Positions 1 to 10,677 of a stretch of 10,677 bases of DNA are shown one piece after another. The stretch's first letter is position 1. Each line of letters opens with the position of its first letter. The stretch spans positions 1 through 10,677 of the forward strand of contig JAUCGN010000044.1 of NCBI GenBank assembly GCA_030378125.1. The letters are read 5' to 3'. The stretch comes from Thiotrichales bacterium HSG1. Lineage in GTDB: Bacteria > Pseudomonadota > Gammaproteobacteria > Beggiatoales > Beggiatoaceae. Made by a program: the position numbers and the translations under genes. The notes beneath the pieces were generated by a model. The model was not told where the DNA came from. It was given only the letters and a program-made list of their open reading frames with translations, and did no database searches.

Positions 1-229
1 GTTGGAGTCTATTAGGATTTTCTCCATAGCGACCATCGGTTGGTCGGCGAGAAGGCTGTACATAAGCAGCACTCCATGGTTCTGGGCCGATAGCTCTTAA
101 AAAGGTTGCCGGGTGAAAAGTTCCGGCTCCAACTTCCATATCATAGGGTTGTAGTAAAACACAACCTTGTTTTGCCCAATATTTTTGGAGGGCTAAAATT
201 AATCCTTGAAATGTTGTGGGCGATGACAC
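1..229 (-). CDS. glyQ: Glycyl-tRNA synthetase alpha subunit, N-terminal part (runs off the left edge)
   Basis: This is the catalytic alpha chain of the tetrameric (alpha2beta2) bacterial glycyl-tRNA synthetase, which charges tRNA-Gly in the cytoplasm. Only about 76 codons are inside the window. The minus-strand translation reads [19 protein letters not shown] near the start, then [19 protein letters not shown] and [18 protein letters not shown] at the edge; these blocks are highly characteristic of GlyQ. I chose the GTG at 227-229 because an AGGAG (235-239 on the plus strand, reversed) sits 5 nt upstream. No ATG lies in frame nearby, and GlyQ homology begins at TTFQG. The gene is divergent from the small gene at 394. 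A second GlyQ segment, from further into the protein, occurs at the right end of the window on the opposite strand. Confidence 0.96.
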
Positions 230-234
230 GACTA

Positions 235-239
235 CTCCT
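235..239 (-). promoter_or_regulatory. Ribosome binding site of glyQ
   Basis: CTCCT on the plus strand is AGGAG on the coding strand, 5 nt before the GTG at 227-229. It decides the non-ATG start of glyQ. Confidence 0.75.
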
Positions 240-327
240 GTTTTCAAATAAAATGAGCATTTTAACACATTATGATGTTATCGCTTATACACCTTACTAA
301 ATTAATTAAGTGTATACAGCTTACAAT

Positions 328-356
328 TTGATTGGATTCATTCTTTTGGATATAAT
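328..356 (+). promoter_or_regulatory. Sigma70-type promoter for the small gene at 394
   Basis: TTGATT (328-333) is followed after exactly 17 nt by a perfect TATAAT (351-356). The predicted start of transcription is near 363, giving a leader of about 30 nt. The promoter lies inside the longer reading frame that begins with GTG at 310, which argues that translation really starts at ATG 394. Confidence 0.65.
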
Positions 357-393
357 TAAATTCTCATTCCTCAATAACATAATAGGTAATCTA

Positions 394-753
394 ATGACTA
401 ACTATAAAATAGCTTTTGCTCCAGATTTAGATATAGATACTTCTGATTTTGTAAATGCTTGGAATGATACGTCTAATTGTCGTGAAATGGCGGAGGCAAA
501 GTTGGATGAGATGACGGCAACTGATTATGATTCTTCCACTGTTAAAGTTTTAGCATTGCTTGGTGTCTTTGCTACTGGAGTTGCTACTAATGCAATTTAT
601 GATTTAATTAAAACTACAGTGGTTAATTTGCCGGGTGTACAGGAAACGTTGGAGATAAAAAATATTCCTAAAAATGCTGATTTTCTTGATATTCAACAGA
701 TTGACCAACCAGATGGTAGCAAGTTGTTGATTATTGTTGTTAAGGAAAAATAG
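394..753 (+). CDS. Small unrecognised protein with one hydrophobic segment (119 aa)
   Basis: I do not recognise a named family. The protein starts MTNYKIAFAPDLD. Its N-terminal part is acidic and predicted helical, with AWNDTSNC at residues 22-29. A hydrophobic, Gly/Ala-rich stretch (residues 50-72, VKVLALLGVFATGVATNAIY and on) could be one membrane helix. The C-terminal half ends in QPDGSKLLIIVVKEK, which looks like a beta-hairpin. A frame-extending GTG exists at 310, but ATG 394 has AGGT (384-387) at good spacing and a strong promoter just upstream. The gene appears monocistronic: promoter upstream, hairpin terminator downstream. It is divergent from glyQ and upstream of the HEPN and CHAT genes. 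It could be a membrane-associated component or target of the neighbouring CHAT proteins, but that is guesswork from position. Confidence 0.7.
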   Translation: MTNYKIAFAPDLDIDTSDFVNAWNDTSNCREMAEAKLDEMTATDYDSSTVKVLALLGVFATGVATNAIYDLIKTTVVNLPGVQETLEIKNIPKNADFLDIQQIDQPDGSKLLIIVVKEK

Positions 754-798
754 GAATGCAAATTCTGTGAGCATTGTAGGATCGATAAAACTAAGTAT

Positions 799-843
799 AA
801 TCGACCATTTGTGTTAATTAAATTTATCTGAATGGTCGATTTT
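799..843 (+). terminator. Hairpin terminator after the small gene
   Basis: A perfect 11-bp inverted repeat (AATCGACCATT at 799-809, AATGGTCGATT at 831-841) has a 21-nt AT-rich loop and ends in TTTT (840-843). The U tract is short, so termination may be partial. TATAAT at 796-801 overlaps the left arm and could be a -10 box for the HEPN gene (weak TTGTAG at 774-779, 16 nt apart), in which case the hairpin would instead sit at the 5' end of that transcript. Confidence 0.55.
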
Positions 844-882
844 CCACATTGAACTAATCCAAAATATAGTTAACTAGAAAGT

Positions 883-1707
883 ATGGAATCAATATTATCC
901 AAACTAAAAGAAAGACATACTCAGTTTTGCACTCATTTAAGACATGGTTGGATAAATGTTGAATTACACTCTTATATAAAACAGCTTTTATCAGAAAAAT
1001 GTGAAGATGAAAATTATAGTGAATCTATGATAGTCAATTGTAAATCTCCAGTTGGTAAGGATTCTCAAGAAAATATTAGATTGAAAGGCAAAAATTTATT
1101 AGGATTTGTTAATTCAACTAAAGGAGCTGGAACAGAATGGGCTTTGCAATGGACTTTAGTGAGTTCAATAGCTTTATTTGAAGCTTTTATTAGTGATATT
1201 GCGACAATAATATATATGAGTAATCCTAAATATTTTCTAATAAATAATCAGGATAGAGTGATAGACTGTAAAGAAAATCATAAAGTAGCAAAGATTCTAA
1301 TTAATAGTGAATCAAGGGAAGAAGCATTAGAAAAGTTAATTGAAGAGAAGTTAAGAAGTATATTCTATGGAAATCCTATAGATGCTTTTATTAAATATAA
1401 CAACAAAAAACATAAAGATGGCAACCTAAAATTAAATTTAGATAAGGTATTTCATAATGAATGTTTTTATGAACTTCAGTTATATAAAGAGATGGTTGGA
1501 CGTAGAAATACAATCGTACATAATGTTGGAATCATTGATGATAAATATATAAGGGAAGTTGATAATATTTGTACAAAACTGTCTGGAGGAGATAAAGTGA
1601 GGATTGATAAAGATTATTCATTTAGTTCTTTAATGATATTAGATAATTTAGCAGCTTTATATACCAAACAGGTCTCAGTACAAATAAAAGAGGGAACATG
1701 GTCTTGA
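883..1707 (+). CDS. HEPN-fold protein with R-N-x3-H motif, probable RNase-type effector (274 aa)
   Basis: The all-helical protein has the two landmarks of HEPN-domain proteins of the kind annotated MAE_28990/RiboL-PSP. One is an N-terminal helix with SSIALFEAFISD (residues 94-105). The other is a C-terminal GRRNTIVHN, giving R208-N209-x3-H213, the Rx4-6H pattern that forms the active site of HEPN RNases. HEPN domains are common toxins and effectors that cut RNA in abortive-infection, toxin-antitoxin and NLR-like systems. The start is the only ATG near the beginning of the frame; the upstream sequence (AGAAAG) is a poor ribosome binding site. Codons are very A/T-rich, more so than in the following CHAT gene, which suggests a separate origin. 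The last residues (EGTWS) and the stop codon come from a hairpin belonging to the structured island that follows, so the native C-terminus may be lost. Family placement rests on motifs only. Confidence 0.7.
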   Translation: MESILSKLKERHTQFCTHLRHGWINVELHSYIKQLLSEKCEDENYSESMIVNCKSPVGKDSQENIRLKGKNLLGFVNSTKGAGTEWALQWTLVSSIALFEAFISDIATIIYMSNPKYFLINNQDRVIDCKENHKVAKILINSESREEALEKLIEEKLRSIFYGNPIDAFIKYNNKKHKDGNLKLNLDKVFHNECFYELQLYKEMVGRRNTIVHNVGIIDDKYIREVDNICTKLSGGDKVRIDKDYSFSSLMILDNLAALYTKQVSVQIKEGTWS

Positions 1708-1829
1708 AAAACCACATTCCCTATCATGTACCCATCCACCCCACTAATAAGCAGGGTGCTCGCCGGAGCCATACCTAAATAGGTAGTTACATGGGAGTCG
1801 ACCGGTGTTAAATTCTTTCCAAACATCAC
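1692..1829 (-). ncRNA. Structured GC-rich island, possible 3' end/omega-RNA relic of an IS200/IS605 element
   Basis: This GC-rich block interrupts very AT-rich DNA. Its stems become continuous only when the minus strand is read as RNA, because mismatches turn into G.U pairs. Examples are an 11-bp stem (1692-1702 with 1711-1721, loop 1703-1710) and a 9-bp stem with a UAUU loop (1737-1745 with 1750-1758). Smaller hairpins are CTC/GAG around 1759-1768 and ACCT/AGGT within 1772-1785; CCCAT (1731-1735) can pair with ATGGG (1791-1795) to enclose them. The minus frame also encodes GKNLTPVDSHV, reminiscent of the variable C-terminal tail of TnpB proteins, whose 3' ends overlap the omega-RNA and the hairpin-bearing right end. 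No tnpB catalytic part follows upstream on that strand. The structure is well supported by sequence; the IS200/IS605 identity is only a suggestion. Confidence 0.4.
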
Positions 1830-1900
1830 TTGTAGTTGTTAATTATAATAATCTAGTTAGTATTTATAGTCAAGTTTAAATTTTTAAAAAGCTATTATTT

Positions 1901-2064
1901 GTCTGAATCAGGATTTACAGAATTATAGAATTTTCAGAATAAAGGCAAAAATATTGACAATCTAAATTGTAGAGACAAGGCATGCCTTGTCTCTACGTTA
2001 CAATATAATTGGTTTTGATTGTTAATTCTGAAAATTCTATAATTCTGTGAATTCTGATTCAGAC
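1901..2064. repeat. Inverted repeat R1 with 40-bp arms in front of the first CHAT gene
   Basis: The left arm 1901-1940 and right arm 2025-2064 are complementary at 38 of 40 positions (mismatches at arm positions 12 and 16). Each outer end reads GTCTGAATCAG. The arms resemble the repeat at 9048-9149 (33 of 40 positions with its right arm), so this is a dispersed family and probably a small non-autonomous mobile repeat. It encloses an unrelated-looking perfect palindrome (1969-1996). The right arm ends one base before the ribosome binding site of the CHAT gene, so a large RNA hairpin would form in that leader if transcription starts upstream. Confidence 0.9.
1969..1996. repeat. Perfect 28-bp palindrome nested in R1
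   Basis: GTAGAGACAAGGCA joined to TGCCTTGTCTCTAC is self-complementary with no loop. GTAGAGAC...GTCTCTAC palindromes are a familiar dispersed repeat type in cyanobacteria and some filamentous bacteria (from memory, not searched). It sits in the middle of the larger inverted repeat and may have inserted into it. Confidence 0.9.
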
Positions 2065-2070
2065 AAGGAG
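2065..2070 (+). promoter_or_regulatory. Ribosome binding site of the first CHAT gene
   Basis: AAGGAG lies 6 nt before ATG 2077 and sets that start, rather than an in-frame GTG at 2047 inside the repeat arm. It directly abuts the end of R1, so it would stay single-stranded next to the hairpin. Confidence 0.85.
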
Positions 2071-2076
2071 AAAAAT

Positions 2077-5000
2077 ATGAACACAATAACCATCCGTGAA
2101 AAAAGTCAAATTGACGCAAACACTTACCAAGCTGAACTCTGTTTTAATGATGATATTCCGTATCAGATTGAAATTAAAAATCCATTTGCTGAGGCTAAAC
2201 AAGAGGAGCTTTTGGAGTGGTATTTTGAGGAATATTCAAAGTTTCCGTTTATGAAGCAAGTGGAGTTTGCTGAGGCGGCGGCGAGTATTGATACTTATGG
2301 TGAGGTTTTGTTTGAGCAGGTTTTTGGGCAACGTAAAGCGTACACTGAATATAGTAATGCCTTGCAAACTGGTGATTTAAAACTGGAAATAATTGGTTCG
2401 CCGGCTTTTCATCAGGTGCATTGGGAGGCTTTGAAAGATTCGGATTCTGACCATGCGTTGGCTTTGCATTATTCGATGATTCGTAAACCAGTTGTTGAGC
2501 AGCATCCGCAGCCAATGGCGAAAGGGAAGGAATCGGCAACGTTAAATGTGTTATTGGTGACTGCACGTCCTGATGGTAAGCATGATGTGGGTTATCGAAC
2601 TATTTCACGGCCTTTGGTGGAAATGCTGCAAAATGCGAAGTTGCCGGTTAAGATTGATATTTTACGGCCCGGTACTTATCAGGCTTTGGTCAAACAGTTG
2701 GAACAGGTGACGAATGAATATGGCAAAGGTTATTATCATTTGTTACATTTTGATGTGCATGGTGCGGTATTGAATTATGAAGAGTTGGAAGCAGGTCGTA
2801 AAGTAGAGCAGTTTAAGTTTTCTTATCAAGCAAGGTTTGGGCGGGAGGATTTGCAGCCGTTTGAGGGTTTGAAAGCATTTTTGTTTTTGCAGGGTGATAA
2901 GCAAGGACAGGCTGAACCGTTGGAAGCCACTGAGTTATCCAATTTGTTAGCTCATCATGGGGTTCCGTTGGTGATGTTGAATGCTTGTCAGTCGGCGAAA
3001 CAGGTTGGTAGTGTTGGTGAGACGAGTTTGGGTAGTCGTTTGATGCAAAGTGGAGTGCAAACTGTGGTGGCGATGGCTTATTCTGTGAAGGTGTCGGCAG
3101 CTAAAATCTTTATGCAGACTTTGTATGAAAATTTGTTTCAGCAGGTTAAGTTGAATGCAGCACTTCGGTTGGCACGTTTGGCTTTGTTTAATGATAAAAC
3201 TCGTATTGCTCATCATAATCAACAGATTAATTTGGAAGATTGGTTGTTGCCGGTGGTTTATCAGAGGCAGGTGGTTGATTTACCGTTACGGGAGTTGACT
3301 GTTGATGAGGAAGTGGCATATTGGCAGAATGAGGCATTGCGTTATGAAGCTCCGTCAACTCAATTTGGTTTTGTGGGGCGAGATTTGGATGTGTTGGAAG
3401 TGGAGAATCGTTTGTTATCGCAACGGAATATTTTGTTGATTTGTGGTATGGGTGGTACTGGTAAAACGACTTTGTTGCATCATTTGGGGGCGTGGTGGCA
3501 GACGACGCATTTTGTGAAGCGGGTGTTTTATTTTGGTTATGATGTGAAGGCGTGGAATCGGCAGCAGATTTTATTGGCTTTGGCTACGGAATTATTGCCA
3601 AATAGTGAAGTATTTAAAGCTATGAGCAAAAATGAATCAGCCCAACAAAAGATGATTGTTAAGAAGTTGCGTTCGGAGCGGCATTTGTTGATTTTGGATA
3701 ATTTGGAGTCTATCACTGGGTCGCATTTGGCGATTTTGCATACTTTGTCAGAGGATGAGCAGCAGGAATTGCAGTCTTTGTTGAATGGTTTGGTGGGTGG
3801 TGAGAGTTTGGTATTGTTGGGTTCGCGTGGGGAGGAGAAGTGGTTGGCAGCGGGGACTTTTGAAAATAATGTTTATGGGTTGGCTGGTTTGGATGCGGAG
3901 GCGGATTCGCAGTTGGTGGATTTGATTTTGGCTGCTCATGGGGTGAGTCATTATCGGGAGGCGGAGGAGCATCGGGAGTATTTGCAGAGCTTGTTGAAGT
4001 TGTTGGCTGGTTATCCGTTGGCTTTGCAGGTGGTGTTGGGGAATTTGGTGCGACAGACTCCTAAAGAGGTTTTGGAGGCATTGGAAGCTGGTGTTTCTGA
4101 GGGGTTGAATACTGGGGTGGAGACTGGGAATATTCATCAGGATAAAACAACTAATATTTTACGTTGTATTGATTATTCTTATGGGAATTTGTCGGAAGAT
4201 GCTCAGAAGTTGTTGTTGTGTTTGGCTCCGTTTACGGGGGTGGTTCGGAAAGACCTGTTTCCACAATATACTGAAAAATTACAACAACAACCGTTATTAG
4301 CTGGCTTACCTTTTGAACAATGGGAATCTGTGTTACAACAGGCAAAAAAATGGGGTTTATTAGAACAACATTCTGAACAACCGATATTTTTAACGGTGCA
4401 ACCAATTTTTCCTTATTTTATGCGGAATCGTTTGCAGTCAAAACCTGATTATCAAGCAGCAATTGAGACGGCGTTTCGGCAATATTATGATGAAATTGGG
4501 GATGCGTTGAAAGATTTGCTTCAATCCAAACAAAATAAGGAAAAACGAATGGGGCGAATGTTGGTATCTTTTGAATATGAAAATCTGTGTAAAGCATTGA
4601 ATTTTGCTTTAGTGGCACAGGTGTCAATTTTAAATTTTTATTACACATTATCTCTTTATTTGGATACTACCAAAGATTATGCACGGGGATTAGTTTTAGG
4701 TAAAGACGTATTATCCAGTTTGGAAAAATATCCAGATGAAACCTTGCAAGGACAATTAGGTGCTGAATTCGTTGGGCTAGTGGATGGTATTGCCACAAAA
4801 CAATGTTTTCTCAAGAAATATGCAGAAGCAGAGCAATCTTATCAAAAGGCTTTGTCAATTTGGCTTACTAACACGGGTTATAATGCTGATGAGATTAAAC
4901 AAAAAAGTGCAAGCATATATCACCAACTTGGTGTGGTAGCAAAAGAACAGCGTCAATGGCAAACTGCAAAACAGTATTATCAAAAGGCTCTGGCTATTTA

Positions 5001-5634
5001 TATTGAGTTTAATGATAAGTCTTCACAAGCCGGTGCTTATCACAATCTAGGTGTGCTAGCACAAGGACAGCATCAATGGTCAGAAGCAGAACATTATTAT
5101 CAAAACTCTCTAGCTATTAAAATTGAGTTTAATGATAAGTATGAACAAGCCCGCACTTATCATCATCTGGGAATGGTGGCACAAGAACAACATCAATGGC
5201 AAATTGCAGAACATTATTATCAAAAAGCTTTGATTATTTTTCTTGAATTCAATGATAAACTTTTACAGGCTCATTCTTATCATAATCTAGGAGAAATGGC
5301 AAGAGAACAAAAACAATGGCAAGCCGCCGAACAGTATTATCAAAAGGCTTTGGAGATTAAAATTGAGTTCAGCGATAAGTATGAACAAGCTGATACTTAT
5401 CAGCAACTGGGCATATTGGCCGAAGAACAAAAACAATGGCAACAAGCAAAGGACTATTTTCTTAAAGCATTAAATTTATTTTTTGAATTTAATGATTCAC
5501 ACAGTATTGAGACTCTTTCTTTACCTGCTCTTGCTCGTTTATACCAAGCCACCAACGACAACACCCTGCCCACTGCCGTTGCGGAGGTATTGGGGATTGG
5601 TGTTGAGGAAGTGTTGGAGAGGTTTGGTGTTTGA
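2077..5634 (+). CDS. CHAT protease - STAND (NB-ARC-like) NTPase - TPR protein (1185 aa)
   Basis: A large cytoplasmic NLR-like sensor and protease. Residues 1 to about 420 form a CHAT (caspase-like) domain: the N-terminal subdomain has SPAFHQVHWEALKDS, then HFDVHG carries the probable catalytic His228 and LNACQSA the probable Cys304. The STAND NTPase follows, with FVGR at 432-435, P-loop GMGGTGKTT at 457-465, Walker B LLILDN at 537-542, GSRGEEKW as the sensor region, and GYPLAL at 645-650. A winged-helix-like linker leads to at least five TPR units of exactly 40 residues, roughly residues 915-1147. In this family TPR ligand binding is thought to trigger NTP-dependent oligomerisation and activate the protease. 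The first catalytic motif (HFDVHG) departs slightly from the common HFSGHG. Codon use changes abruptly near 4240-4260. The TGA stop lies within a repeat (R2). ATG 2077 is preferred for its ribosome binding site. The protein is convergent with a second CHAT protein at 6144-8825. Confidence 0.92.
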   Translation: MNTITIREKSQIDANTYQAELCFNDDIPYQIEIKNPFAEAKQEELLEWYFEEYSKFPFMKQVEFAEAAASIDTYGEVLFEQVFGQRKAYTEYSNALQTGDLKLEIIGSPAFHQVHWEALKDSDSDHALALHYSMIRKPVVEQHPQPMAKGKESATLNVLLVTARPDGKHDVGYRTISRPLVEMLQNAKLPVKIDILRPGTYQALVKQLEQVTNEYGKGYYHLLHFDVHGAVLNYEELEAGRKVEQFKFSYQARFGREDLQPFEGLKAFLFLQGDKQGQAEPLEATELSNLLAHHGVPLVMLNACQSAKQVGSVGETSLGSRLMQSGVQTVVAMAYSVKVSAAKIFMQTLYENLFQQVKLNAALRLARLALFNDKTRIAHHNQQINLEDWLLPVVYQRQVVDLPLRELTVDEEVAYWQNEALRYEAPSTQFGFVGRDLDVLEVENRLLSQRNILLICGMGGTGKTTLLHHLGAWWQTTHFVKRVFYFGYDVKAWNRQQILLALATELLPNSEVFKAMSKNESAQQKMIVKKLRSERHLLILDNLESITGSHLAILHTLSEDEQQELQSLLNGLVGGESLVLLGSRGEEKWLAAGTFENNVYGLAGLDAEADSQLVDLILAAHGVSHYREAEEHREYLQSLLKLLAGYPLALQVVLGNLVRQTPKEVLEALEAGVSEGLNTGVETGNIHQDKTTNILRCIDYSYGNLSEDAQKLLLCLAPFTGVVRKDLFPQYTEKLQQQPLLAGLPFEQWESVLQQAKKWGLLEQHSEQPIFLTVQPIFPYFMRNRLQSKPDYQAAIETAFRQYYDEIGDALKDLLQSKQNKEKRMGRMLVSFEYENLCKALNFALVAQVSILNFYYTLSLYLDTTKDYARGLVLGKDVLSSLEKYPDETLQGQLGAEFVGLVDGIATKQCFLKKYAEAEQSYQKALSIWLTNTGYNADEIKQKSASIYHQLGVVAKEQRQWQTAKQYYQKALAIYIEFNDKSSQAGAYHNLGVLAQGQHQWSEAEHYYQNSLAIKIEFNDKYEQARTYHHLGMVAQEQHQWQIAEHYYQKALIIFLEFNDKLLQAHSYHNLGEMAREQKQWQAAEQYYQKALEIKIEFSDKYEQADTYQQLGILAEEQKQWQQAKDYFLKALNLFFEFNDSHSIETLSLPALARLYQATNDNTLPTAVAEVLGIGVEEVLERFGV
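4918..5517 (+). repeat. Five tandem 120-bp TPR-coding units
   Basis: Units beginning at 4918, 5038, 5158, 5278 and 5398 each start with a TAT codon (Tyr of YHxLG) and keep an exact 120-nt period. They share long near-identical stretches such as ATTGAGTTTAATGATAAG. Each encodes a 40-residue TPR ending in YYQKALxIxIEFNDK. The nucleotide-level similarity points to recent tandem duplication or gene conversion. Confidence 0.88.
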
Positions 5635-5786
5635 ACATGATTGTGCAAGATTTGCAGGATAAAACATGATTAAAAACCTTTAACCCAATGATTTTGCTTT
5701 TTAATCCTGCTCATCCTTAAATCCTGTATAATCTTGTTCAAACTAACTTTGGATTCTGAACATGATTGTGCAGGATTTGCAAGATA
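5631..5786. repeat. Inverted/direct repeat cluster R2 after the first CHAT gene
   Basis: TGAACATGATTGTGC begins a 30-bp unit at 5632-5661 that recurs at 5757-5786 in the same orientation with 28 of 30 identities. Between them, 5701-5741 is an imperfect inverted copy (reverse complement starts TTGAACAAGATTATACAGG). The arms 5631-5672 and 5701-5741 could form a long hairpin between the two convergent CHAT genes, possibly acting as a terminator. The TGA that stops the first CHAT gene (5632-5634) is part of the first unit. Confidence 0.82.
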
Positions 5787-6125
5787 TAGTAACATTCTTA
5801 CAAAACTGCATCATAAAAACAAATTATAGGTAAAAACATATTAGTTATAGTGTAGATTTCAGAAAACGTGCAACCGATTTTGTTATTGAAGAAAAAAATA
5901 GTATGAGAAGTGCGAGCAAAATATTCAATATACAGTATAATGAAAGAATGGGTAAAAATATTTAAAGAAACCGGAGAATTTTCTCCCAAACCAATTTGTG
6001 GAAACAACAAAGGTAAATTTATCAGAATTATCTCAACAAGTATTAGAATATCCAGATAGATTTCAATATGAATATGCCCAATATAGATTGTTTTTATGGT
6101 GCATAAATATATGGATGTTACTATA
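5785..6125. mobile_element. Internally deleted IS630-type element with terminal inverted repeats
   Basis: The left end reads TATAGTAACATTC from 5785 and the right end is its near-complement, finishing at 6125. The terminal inverted repeats extend to about 38 bp with roughly three quarters of positions matching; ATAAAAACAA recurs at their inner ends. Both ends finish in TA, the target duplicated by IS630/Tc1-mariner elements, leaving an element of about 337 bp (5787-6123). It contains only the N-terminal part of a transposase, so it is a deletion derivative (MITE-like). It sits at the edge of repeat R2 and ends 18 nt before the stop codon of the second CHAT gene. Confidence 0.75.
5840..6084 (+). 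pseudogene. Broken IS630-family transposase, N-terminal helix-turn-helix part
   Basis: Three consecutive frames join into one IS630-like N-terminus. The first is ISYSVDFRKRATDFVIEEK followed by SMRSASKIFN (from 5840). The second is MKEWVKIFKETGEFSPKP (frame of 5940). The third is VNLSELSQQVLEYPDRFQYE (frame of 6013). At least two frameshifts separate them, and the initiator appears mutated (ATT at 5840 where ATG is expected before SYSVDF). The DDE catalytic domain is absent. It cannot encode an active transposase; the terminal repeats around it could still be moved by a full-length relative elsewhere. The family call is from recall of the conserved layout. Confidence 0.72.
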
Positions 6126-6143
6126 CAATAAAACCTGACAGGT

Positions 6144-8825
6144 CTAAAGTCCCAACCACCTCCGCCACCATTTCTTTGGCTTCGGATTTTTCATTTCCTC
6201 AAGCAATCCAGCATAGTTTTCTGAATAGAGACGCACATCAGGATGATCAGGTTCAAAGAACTTATTTGCAATTTTTATAGCCCGTTCATACAATGGCTTA
6301 GCTTTTTCATAATCACCTTGAGTTTTATATAATGATGCTAAGTTATTAAGGTCAATTGCAACATCAGGATGTTCTTTACCATAAACTTTTTCATCAATAG
6401 CTAAAGAACGTTCATACAACGGTTTGGCTTGTTCATAATCGCCTTGGTCATCATATAATGATGCTTGGTTATTTAGGTCTCTTGCAACATCAGGATGTTC
6501 TTTACCATAAATTTTCTCATCAATAGCTAAAGCCCGTTCATACAATGGTTTGGCTGCTTGACAGTCACTTTGGTCTTTATATAATGTTGCTAAATTGTTT
6601 AGGGAAGTAGCTAAGAGTGGATGTTCTTCACCATGAACTTTTTCCCAAATATCTAAAGCCCGTTCATACAATGGTTTAGCTGCTTTATAGTCACCTTGAC
6701 TATAATATAATACTGCTAAGTTATTAATACTTTGTGCTATATCAGGATGTTCTTTACCATAAACTTTCTCACGAATAGCCAAAGAACGTTCATACAATAG
6801 TTTGGCTGTTTTATAATCACCTTGAATTCTATATAACAATGCTAAGTTGTTAAGGCTAGTTGCTACATCAGGATGTTCTTTTTCATGAACTTTTTCACTA
6901 ATAGCTAAAGAACGTTCATACAACGGCTTGGCTTCTTTATAATTACCTTGAGTTTTATATAATAATGCTAAGTTGTTAAGGCCAGTTGCTACCTCTGAAT
7001 GTTCTTCACCATAAACTTTTTCTTTAATAGCTAAAGAACGTTCATACAACGATTTGGCTGATTTATAATCAGCTTTACTATCATCTAAATAATAAGCAAT
7101 TTGATTCAATAAAATACCAGCCTCTTCAGATTCTAATTTCCATTCTTCAATCAATTCTGCACAAGTCAAAGCACAGGGTAATAAACGCTCACAAGTTGGC
7201 CAATCTGAAACCTCCATATCATAAGGAAAAATCCTATTCATCGCCAACACCGCCTTCTCCGCCCAATCCTTCTGCTCCTCACCCAACTCATGCCGCAATA
7301 TCCCCTGCACCAACCGATGAATCCGCAACATTCCCGCATCCCGCCACACAAACGAAAACTGCAACACAACCTTCAACGCCTGCTCAAACTCCAAATCATC
7401 CCAATCCCCAAACACCTCCTCAGGAATCCCATCAGGATGCAAAAACGCACATAAATTCAACAACTCAATCGCCTTCGGATTAGCCTGTTCAACCTTCTCC
7501 AACGACAACAACCAAGTCACCGCTATCGGGTCAGGATGATCCGACTCATTAACCACGACTCCCCGCTCTCGCAACAACTCATACCCATGCTTCCGATACA
7601 ACTTCAAATACCCTGCCAAACCACACAACGTCTCCCGCACATAAGCCCCAGCCTGATCCAACGCCAACGGCAACGCCCCCAACAACTCAACCAACTCCTC
7701 AGCCGTATTTCTATCAGCAAAACTATAATCCCCAATCGTCCCACTTTTAGAACGAGGTCTATCCAAAGCCTTCCGCAACAAAAAATTAACCCCATCATCT
7801 TGCGACATCTCATTAACTTTCACCGCCTGAGCAAACGGCTCCGTTATTTGAGTCCGAGTCGTCACCAAAACATGCCGATCCTTACCAGCCAACTCAGCCA
7901 ATTCACCAACCAACTTTATCTCATCCGCATTATCCAAAATCAACAACCAATGATCATGTTTCGCCAACCAATCCAAAACCGCCGCAACCATTGCCTCCTG
8001 CTCTTTCACCACTGGCAAACCCAACTCCCGACCAATCGCCTCCAACCCCAAATTTAACTCAGTTTTCGTATCCGCCAAACACCATAAAATTGCCCGATAT
8101 TCATACCGATGCAACCGAGCATAATGAGCTGCCGTCTGCGTCTTACCCATACCTCCCAAACCACTCAAAGCCGCCACATTCCGAAAATGCAAAGTTTCCT
8201 GTAACTCATGCAAAATCTCCAACCGCCCAGTAAACAAAGAATTTTCCGCTATCGGAACCAACCAATGAGAATTAACGAACCGTTGTTTCAAAACTGGCTT
8301 TAACCGCTCATCCTTGCTGGTAATATTCGCCCGTCCCAAATCAAACGCATCTGGAATCAATTCCCCAGCAGCCAACGCATCATAAAACCCAACCGCAAAC
8401 TGAATCGCTGCTCCATTCTGAATCGGCTGATTCATCCCAATAACAAAATCAACATGTTGCACAATAGCACTAGCCTGCAAAGCAGTAAAACAAGCATTCA
8501 AAATTACACAGTCAATATTAAATGGTTCTAAAAAATTAGCCAACGTCTCCCCATCAACGTCCTGCCTTTTACCAGCATCATCCTCCAACACAATCCCGGA
8601 TTGTCCAGCCCCATGTCCAGAAAAATGAATAATATTCGGTTTATGATCCAACAACGCATGACGCAACGCCTCAAGAGTAGTCGCCCATTGCTGCTTAAAC
8701 ACAAACTGTTCCCGAGATTGCAATCGCTGCAACTCTTTCTCAACTTGTTCAACTTCCTGTTTTAAATCCAATTGTGTTGTATTGCTGGGATTAGCAGCCA
8801 AAAATAAAATAGTTTTTTTATCCAT
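6144..8825 (-). CDS. CHAT protease - STAND NTPase - kinesin-light-chain-type TPR protein (893 aa)
   Basis: A second NLR-like protein, smaller than the first. Residues 1 to about 190 are a CHAT domain starting directly at the N-terminus (KTILFLAANPSNT). It has the canonical catalytic pair: HFSGHG with His71, and ILNACF with Cys112. The NTPase follows: FTGR at 198-201, P-loop GLGGMGKTQ at 222-230 (Lys228), Walker B LLILDNAD at 294-301, VTTRTQ at 321-326 and GALPLAL at 383-389. A winged-helix region comes next. Residues from about 586 to 880 are seven 42-residue TPRs of the kinesin light chain type (EKVYGKEHPDVA, LNNLA, AKPLYERSLAI). The protein ends in a basic, Trp-rich tail (KKWWRRWLGL) that could touch membranes or nucleic acid. 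The ATG at 8823-8825 has AAGG at 8833-8836, 7 nt upstream. It is probably an immune-type sensor protease; the substrate is unknown. Confidence 0.93.
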   Translation of the reverse strand: MDKKTILFLAANPSNTTQLDLKQEVEQVEKELQRLQSREQFVFKQQWATTLEALRHALLDHKPNIIHFSGHGAGQSGIVLEDDAGKRQDVDGETLANFLEPFNIDCVILNACFTALQASAIVQHVDFVIGMNQPIQNGAAIQFAVGFYDALAAGELIPDAFDLGRANITSKDERLKPVLKQRFVNSHWLVPIAENSLFTGRLEILHELQETLHFRNVAALSGLGGMGKTQTAAHYARLHRYEYRAILWCLADTKTELNLGLEAIGRELGLPVVKEQEAMVAAVLDWLAKHDHWLLILDNADEIKLVGELAELAGKDRHVLVTTRTQITEPFAQAVKVNEMSQDDGVNFLLRKALDRPRSKSGTIGDYSFADRNTAEELVELLGALPLALDQAGAYVRETLCGLAGYLKLYRKHGYELLRERGVVVNESDHPDPIAVTWLLSLEKVEQANPKAIELLNLCAFLHPDGIPEEVFGDWDDLEFEQALKVVLQFSFVWRDAGMLRIHRLVQGILRHELGEEQKDWAEKAVLAMNRIFPYDMEVSDWPTCERLLPCALTCAELIEEWKLESEEAGILLNQIAYYLDDSKADYKSAKSLYERSLAIKEKVYGEEHSEVATGLNNLALLYKTQGNYKEAKPLYERSLAISEKVHEKEHPDVATSLNNLALLYRIQGDYKTAKLLYERSLAIREKVYGKEHPDIAQSINNLAVLYYSQGDYKAAKPLYERALDIWEKVHGEEHPLLATSLNNLATLYKDQSDCQAAKPLYERALAIDEKIYGKEHPDVARDLNNQASLYDDQGDYEQAKPLYERSLAIDEKVYGKEHPDVAIDLNNLASLYKTQGDYEKAKPLYERAIKIANKFFEPDHPDVRLYSENYAGLLEEMKNPKPKKWWRRWLGL
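6189..7070 (-). repeat. Seven tandem 126-bp TPR-coding units
   Basis: The block TTCATACAA on the plus strand (coding for LYER) recurs at 6285, 6411, 6537, 6663, 6789, 6915 and 7041, an exact 126-nt period (42 codons). The units are close to identical over long stretches, so the array probably expands and contracts and may be misassembled from short reads. Confidence 0.9.
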
Positions 8826-8904: not shown

Positions 8905-9047
8905 TAAAGCAAAAAAAGAATTAAATGGTTAGGTAGTCTCAAAATAGGTAGTGGTAAATTCCACAAATTCTTGAAACATTACAAGTTTTTTTGAAGACAG
9001 CAATACTTTATTTAGAACTACCAAATCTTTGTATAGGACATTTTTTT
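8905..9047. other. Intergenic stretch without a recognised gene
   Basis: Together with the leader of the second CHAT gene and repeat R3, this fills the gene-free gap 8826-9237. The stretch is AT-rich. A short minus-strand open segment (about 8938-9048, with MFQEFVEFTTTYF) has no start signals and no family I recognise; it could be a gene remnant. CTTG/CAAG followed by seven T at about 8984-8991 is too short a stem to call a terminator. Confidence 0.4.
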
Positions 9048-9149
9048 GTCAGGATCAGGATTTTAAGAATTAACCGGATTTTTTATACTCAATAATTTAA
9101 AAATATTTTATCCTGAAAATCCTTTAATCTCGTAAATCCTGATTCTGAC
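9048..9149. repeat. Inverted repeat R3 before the MotB/ZorB-like gene
   Basis: The outer ends are GTCAGGATCAGGATTT on the left and AAATCCTGATTCTGAC on the right; the complementarity continues imperfectly towards an AT-rich centre. The reverse complement of the right arm matches the left arm of R1 at 33 of 40 positions, so R1 and R3 belong to one dispersed family. Confidence 0.82.
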
Positions 9150-9237
9150 AATTAAAAATGATTTAAATCAATACATTATAAAAAATATCTTATACAAAAA
9201 CAATTAATCACTTTAATATAAAATTCGGGTTAATAAT

Positions 9238-10266
9238 ATGTTCAATGATGAAACTGAAAGCAATGTATCTTGGATAGGTTTTTCTGACCTATTTTTCCAT
9301 CTGTTTATCTTCTTCTTTATAGTTTTTATAGTGGTTAAAATTTCGGCTATGGAAACAATCAAAGACCATAACTCATACACCGCTCAATTAGAACAAGAAT
9401 ACAGCCAAGAAATAGCTTATTTAAACAAACAAATCAAACTATTGGAAGCAAAGCTAAAAGATTGCATGGAAAAAGTTGCCATCTGTGAATTTGACACGCA
9501 ACAAATGTCTGATGATAAAAGCGAATTAAAGCTACAAATCAAACAATTAGAAAGCAAATTAAAAGACTGTCGTCAAGACTTACAAGAATGTCAAGCTTCA
9601 TTGTATGCCTACCAACAGGATAATCAAAGGTTAAAATATAAATTAAGAAAATACAAGAATTTAGTCAAATATGAAGGTTATGGCCCTGATACCTCCAAAG
9701 TTGAGACTAATAAAAATGAGTTGTTTCAACAGATTGCCACTAATTATAATTTTGTTAATACAAAGGGTGAACATTGTATTCCAATTTTAGCAAATGACAA
9801 AATTTGTGTAGAAGATACTACTTTGCAAGAACAAACAATTAGCTTTGGCAGCAGCGTGTTATTTACTTCGGGGCAAGCCAAATTAAAAATACGTGGCAGA
9901 GATATATTGACCACTGTAGGCAATGTAATTAGAAGCAAATTATCAGCAATTCAAGAAATTCAAATTCAAGGTCATGCCGATACCACCGCCCCAAGACAGT
10001 TTGATATTAATTCCCAACAAAGTCAAAAATATAATCTAAAATTAGCTTCTGAACGAGCATTGGAAGTATTTTTGTTTTTAAAGGAACAGCTTTCCATTAA
10101 TCCAGCCCAAGTATTAATGTCCGCTACCTCTTTTGGTAGTTATAAACCAGTTACAAGAAATGCTGAGGATAATTATACTTGGGAAAGAATTAGGTTGGAA
10201 AATGATGATGATGATAAAAAACAGCTTAATCGCCGAATTGAAATAGTTTTAACTTATAAGCGTTGA
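9238..10266 (+). CDS. MotB/ZorB-like inner-membrane protein with coiled coil and OmpA domain (342 aa)
   Basis: The N-terminus has the layout of MotB/ZorB-type stator subunits: W12 and an S16-D17 pair at the start of a single membrane helix (about residues 13-33, WIGFSDLFFHLFIFFF). The Asp matches the ion-carrying Asp of MotB. A long charged coiled coil spans about 45-140 (LEAKLKDC and LESKLKDC repeats). From about 200 comes an OmpA/MotB peptidoglycan-binding domain: SFGSSVLFTSGQ, then QGHADT with D248, LASERALEV with R273, and a closing NRRIEIVL. The helix would lie in the inner membrane with the OmpA domain gripping the cell wall. MotB partners MotA and ZorB partners ZorA; neither partner is in the window. 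ATG 9238 is the only start that keeps the whole helix; the ribosome binding site is weak. An ordinary OmpA-family envelope protein is the alternative. Confidence 0.82.
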   Translation: MFNDETESNVSWIGFSDLFFHLFIFFFIVFIVVKISAMETIKDHNSYTAQLEQEYSQEIAYLNKQIKLLEAKLKDCMEKVAICEFDTQQMSDDKSELKLQIKQLESKLKDCRQDLQECQASLYAYQQDNQRLKYKLRKYKNLVKYEGYGPDTSKVETNKNELFQQIATNYNFVNTKGEHCIPILANDKICVEDTTLQEQTISFGSSVLFTSGQAKLKIRGRDILTTVGNVIRSKLSAIQEIQIQGHADTTAPRQFDINSQQSQKYNLKLASERALEVFLFLKEQLSINPAQVLMSATSFGSYKPVTRNAEDNYTWERIRLENDDDDKKQLNRRIEIVLTYKR

Positions 10267-10340: not shown

Positions 10341-10622
10341 ATGCAAGATACTCTTCTCATTATTGTTTTAGCTCCGTTAATTGGGGCTATTATCGCTGGA
10401 TTATTTCCAGTTAGCCGTCGTATTGCTCACTCGGTGACTATTGGGGCAGTTGGGTTAGCTTTCTTTCTGTCGGTTTATGTATTTTACCAAATAATTTTTG
10501 CTGGTCATGCGATTTATAATGAAACTTTATACACTTGGCTGGTAGCTGGTAATGTGAGATTAGAAGTTGGCTTTATGGTTGATTCACTCACTGCGGTGAT
10601 GATGTTGGTTGTCACCTTTGTG
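10341..10622 (+). CDS. nuoL: NADH-quinone oxidoreductase subunit L, N-terminal part (interrupted by a join)
   Basis: NuoL is the large antiporter-like, proton-pumping subunit of respiratory complex I in the inner membrane. The frame begins MQDTLLIIVLAPLIGAIIAG with an AGGA (10331-10334) 6 nt before the ATG. It runs through hydrophobic segments to GFMVDSLTAVMMLVVTFV, the start of the conserved NuoL core (normally VVTFVS then LLVHxYxxGYM). After V94 (10620-10622) the NuoL sequence stops and GlyQ sequence continues in the same frame. Full-length NuoL is over 600 residues, so only its first ~94 are present. The gene usually follows nuoK in a nuo operon; here an OmpA-type gene precedes it. Confidence 0.9.
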
Positions 10623-10677
10623 GAAGACAATTGGGAATCACCAACTCTAGGAGCGTGGGTATTGGGTTGGGAACTTT
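10617..10677 (+). pseudogene. glyQ: Internal GlyQ fragment joined in frame to nuoL (probable chimera)
   Basis: From 10617 the frame reads FVEDNWESPTLGAWVLGWEL, which matches the GlyQ core segment ([20 protein letters not shown] in E. coli, from memory). The glyQ start at the left edge stops at residue 76; this piece would begin about 37 residues later in the protein. It is on the opposite strand from that start. TTTGTG (10617-10622) fits both nuoL and glyQ and so is a microhomology at the join. It is not a functional gene as arranged. Confidence 0.88.

Follow-up and report, generated by a model that had tools for sequence, protein, structure and literature searches.

An apparent NuoL-GlyQ fusion at a contig end of Thiotrichales bacterium HSG1 is probably an amplification chimera

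Introduction

Does the open reading frame at the right end of contig JAUCGN010000044.1 of Thiotrichales bacterium HSG1, which passes from nuoL into glyQ, encode a genuine fusion protein, or did the join originate in the laboratory? The window, i.e., the whole stretch of DNA analysed here (10,677 bases), is the complete contig (G000:C327), and its left and right ends are both contig ends. It is part of a fragmented draft genome (457 contigs totalling 2,223,787 bases; completeness 63%) of an organism that belongs with the giant sulfur bacteria. An initial annotation had proposed an inverted, chimeric join, produced by multiple displacement amplification (MDA), and we examined this proposal using the window, the other contigs of the assembly, and related genomes.

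Results

Structure of the join

The open reading frame at 10341-10676 (+) has no stop codon up to the contig end and showed two Pfam matches: Proton_antipo_N at residues 66-94 (2e-07) and tRNA-synt_2e (GlyQ) at residues 91-111 (1.3e-07), the latter to profile positions 106-126. nuoL starts at 10341 (+) and is read through codon 94, and the same frame is GlyQ from 10617; in blastn comparisons with relatives, the nuoL match extends to 10621 and the glyQ match begins at 10616 or 10617. The two domain matches and the blastn boundaries bear out the in-frame switch from nuoL to glyQ that had been described initially. The 5' part of nuoL (10341-10622, +; codons 1-94, including the word common to both genes), recognized by its Proton_antipo_N match and its identity to congeners, shares 92-96% of its protein sequence over 92 residues with three congeners and 91% with the fourth. 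The misplaced tail (10617-10677, +) comprises 61 nt out of the middle of glyQ, corresponding to PF02091 positions 106-126, and has 82-87% DNA identity to the glyQ of congeners over 56-61 nt. The 5' part of glyQ, the gene of the glycyl-tRNA synthetase alpha subunit, lies where the initial annotation had placed it, at the other end of the window on the opposite strand (2-268, -), and runs off the left contig end; it was identified by PF02091 (positions 1-70 at 2-211 (-), E = 1.4e-36) and by 85-88% DNA identity to the glyQ of four congeners.

At the join the window reads TTTGTG (10617-10622, +), a word common to nuoL and glyQ according to the blastn boundaries and an 11-row alignment of both genes. 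TTTGT was invariant in all 11 rows, i.e., 5 nt are secure. The microhomology of 6 nt originally suggested therefore stands in its first five bases, and its sixth base is left open: nuoL reads TTTGTA in all four congeners, and the glyQ rows vary at this position. A common word of 5-6 nt lies within the 2-21 nt looked for at the junction of an MDA chimera. Assuming uniform base composition, a random join would display at least 6 common nt with a chance of about 0.0013 and at least 5 nt with a chance of about 0.005, and both values would be somewhat higher in this AT-rich DNA. The reading frame is preserved across the join because NuoL and GlyQ both have Phe-Val there, with their codons in equal phase, which we take to be a coincidence of about one in three.

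Spacing, orientation, and comparison with relatives

The distance between the equivalents of base 1 and of position 10617 was 110 nt in all ten relatives with glyQ (the left match begins at base 1 in five of them and at base 8 or base 12 in the rest, an offset for which we corrected), in agreement with the roughly 37 residues thought to be missing between the two glyQ pieces. The tail thus has its place 110 nt beyond the first base of the contig, on the opposite strand. With the glyQ start at 2-211 (-) and the tail at 10617-10677 (+), the join is inverted, as looked for in an MDA chimera, and the joined points are about 10.7 kb apart when the 110-nt gap is borrowed from the relatives, close to the span of about 10 kb first estimated; the main class of published MDA chimeras spans less than 10 kb. 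A join so near to the contig's own other end can hardly be random, which points to an event within one molecule.

Of the 19 other genomes searched for nuoL, 16 gave a match, in open frames 647-677 aa long, and of the 12 searched for glyQ, 10 did so; each gave one match without stops, and the glyQ copy of G003 is cut by a contig end. The two are separate genes in the relatives, located at 3.31 and 3.52 Mb, i.e., about 207 kb apart, in the single-contig relative G006, and a NuoL-GlyQ fusion was absent from the relatives searched for nuoL (19 genomes) and glyQ (12 genomes). Among 47 loci that matched the frame, judged by the extent of the match, 46 cover at most residues 1-95; the remaining locus (L041, from the same record as G002) covers residues 1-104, and its open frame encodes an ordinary NuoL of 648 aa. 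A blastn search of plasmid records, from which near records may be omitted, yielded no match to the junction.

No further antiporter-like genes were found downstream of nuoL in four stretches of relatives (L029, L031, L033, L035); in L037 (G006), nuoL is followed by two weakly similar genes, placed as nuoM and nuoN would be. In this lineage, nuoL appears to have become separated from its operon.

Other features of the window

Upstream of nuoL, the gene at 9238-10266 (+) encodes an OmpA/MotB-like protein with an N-terminal hydrophobic stretch and a coiled-coil-like middle, which is matched by ZorB models (best 1.3e-14); no ZorA-like match was found among the five proteins scanned, and the gene shows no similarity to the one upstream of nuoL in G002. 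Two large convergent genes (2047-5634, + and 6144-8825, -) carry CHAT protease-like, NB-ARC/AAA-like, and TPR domains, the second with a weak PADLOC 'chat' match. The gene at 883-1707 (+) has a HEPN_RiboL-PSP match under the curated cut-off (23.7 vs 28.4 bits). Inverted-repeat elements are present at 1883-2066 and 9042-9167; 45-nt arms (93% complementary) flank a perfect 28-nt palindrome at 1969-1996, a related copy lies at 9107-9167, and similar stretches occur in relatives' loci L028, L029, L034, and L035. A scan of the window for Rfam families and tRNA genes detected none.

Other contig ends of the assembly and control genomes

We examined 81 contigs of the assembly including the window; 65 could be read, amounting to 471,958 bases with 129 contig ends. 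The longest exact overlap between two contig ends was 127 nt, which suggests that the assembler used a word of 127. On this ground we rejected the idea that the 61-nt tail is an overlap of one assembler word at a branch of the assembly graph; the tail is better taken as a dead end. Exact matches of at least 30 nt touching contig ends numbered 23, and two of these lie within one contig, one of the two being inverted: positions 1-118 of contig L094 are an exact inverted copy of 2449-2566 (118 nt), and positions 1-75 of contig L102 are an exact direct copy of 10910-10984 (75 nt). No third copy of either tail was found in the readable contigs examined. In both contigs an open frame enters the tail, and the source of the tail overlaps another open frame, and we count these two matches as likely chimeric tails. 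The other 21 matches join different contigs, and several plainly represent one repeat family. Three contigs (the window, L094, and L102) thus have misplaced tails, all shorter than 127 nt, a length that would fit a dead-end chimeric read because any tail exceeding it would be joined to the true path.

Two small and repeat-rich genomes served as controls. G004 (20 contigs, 38 ends) had 13 end-touching matches, three of them within one contig and all three inverted (L179, L175, L184). As chimeras these were rejected: over 98-150 nt the copies share 97-98% of their bases and so fall short of an exact match, and more matching pieces follow; they are probably real repeats. A large palindrome, imperfect and about 6.2 kb long, occupies positions 1-6181 at the contig end of L179 (G004:C15); it is 98% identical over the 150 nt tested. 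G001 (12 of 20 contigs readable, 22 ends) had eight end-touching matches, none within one contig; when matches down to 25 nt are admitted, a single inverted one, 28 nt long, reaches a contig end (L196). End-touching matches were no commoner in the genome of the window (23 at 129 ends) than in these controls (13 at 38 and 8 at 22). The case for chimeric tails elsewhere in the assembly consists of a pair of tails that are exact and apparently present in a single copy, just one of the pair being inverted.

Missing parts of nuoL and glyQ

A search for further nuoL and glyQ sequence in the readable contigs of the genome yielded nothing beyond the start of nuoL and the two pieces of glyQ. The nuoL remainder was not among these contigs, and the window itself stops 110 nt before a would-be reciprocal junction, at which the glyQ start would enter the nuoL remainder. 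All 16 fetched contigs of up to 1,781 nt from this genome read only N, as did eight contigs of up to 2,673 nt from G001, i.e., contigs below about 2-3 kb were unreadable. Because small contigs read only N and the genome is 63% complete, the absence of second copies is weak evidence, and the missing parts of both genes may reside in unread contigs.

Type of assembly

The contig numbers look as if they had been sorted as text by rank. Single large contigs fall in size from 19,136 to 16,562 nt, and the blocks of smaller contigs between them hold 8, 8, 9, 10, 7, 10, 9, 9, and 10 contigs, i.e., 80 of 90 possible ranks (C61-C65, C71-C76, and C81-C86 were assumed to be small); one pair (C88, C90) is out of size order by 1 nt. 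At the small end of the order the blocks hold 6, 5, 3, and 0 contigs. If read correctly, this order implies that the original assembly drew most of its contigs in this size range from the genome of the window, which suggests a single-cell or single-filament assembly rather than a bulk metagenome. Accounts of other family members (PMC4914600, PMC4971068) describe MDA before sequencing.

Discussion

It is very probable that the NuoL-GlyQ fusion protein read from this frame is an artefact with no biological basis. The tail join was probably formed in vitro as a chimeric DNA molecule, most likely during MDA with phi29 polymerase. A strand being copied rightward through nuoL would come loose, its free 3' end would anneal by 5-6 bases to single-stranded glyQ DNA about 10.7 kb upstream, and extension would proceed from there through glyQ in the opposite direction. 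If the true continuation of nuoL were absent from the assembly at this point, the assembler would pass into glyQ along one or more chimeric reads and halt where these ended, leaving a dead-end tail of 61 nt. In the true genome the contig would be continued rightward by the rest of nuoL, and leftward by 110 nt of glyQ and then the sequence of the tail.

In the account of MDA chimeras by Lasken and Stockwell (2007, PMC1855051), 406 of 475 were inverted, 337 of these 406 joined points less than 10 kb apart, and at least 2 complementary nt were present in 76.8%; the mechanism described there is that a displaced 3' end primes on a nearby single strand. The join in the window resembles this class, as described, in being inverted within one region, in its short common word and kilobase spacing, and in having the second segment upstream of the first, with a stretch between the joined points. 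It differs in that it is known from an assembled contig instead of reads, amplification of the sample being inferred, and in its spacing of about 10.7 kb, just above the class below 10 kb; since the same source gives complementarity in only 34.8% of inverted chimeras beyond 10 kb, this is a mild point against MDA. On balance, an anatomy corresponding to the dominant class in that account, together with the exact misplaced tails on L094 and L102, supports the MDA interpretation originally put forward.

Another laboratory step (library PCR, ligation, or fold-back of fragment ends) or a mis-closed assembler gap could have made the join without MDA, since the contig displays the product alone, with nothing specific to phi29, and any read across the join would leave an identical artificial tail. 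The combination of an inverted join within one molecule, a short common word, and kilobase spacing is nevertheless that of the MDA class as PMC1855051 describes it, and we regard these other steps as an unlikely source. The words that assemblers usually employ are far longer than 5-6 bases, and so a join made by software only is hard to reconcile with the common word observed.

A real chromosomal inversion at a microhomology, with one breakpoint in nuoL and the other in glyQ, would produce an identical junction on the right, and neither the rest of nuoL nor that of glyQ was found in readable contigs, the left contig end lying 110 nt short of where the reciprocal junction would appear. It would, however, break nuoL as well as glyQ, which is an essential gene, and would need a reciprocal junction plus survival without intact glyQ, or extra copies, none of which were detected in the contigs that could be read; nor does the fusion occur in any relative searched. 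We consider such an inversion highly improbable. Giant sulfur bacteria are considered polyploid, and a real inversion might be confined to a minority of the chromosome copies, the others keeping nuoL and glyQ intact; this hypothetical variant leaves the exact tails on L094 and L102 unexplained and is likewise highly improbable. An amplification chimera is thus the preferred explanation of the join.

A fusion annotation would mislead, as the initial annotation had warned: no NuoL-GlyQ fusion should be annotated from the gene model at 10341-10677, and the tail at 10617-10677 needs to be trimmed or flagged. The contig ends of this assembly merit a check for short misplaced tails, which scores of completeness and contamination are not built to reveal. 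We regard the join as an ordinary contig-end chimera, and the finding is chiefly a warning.
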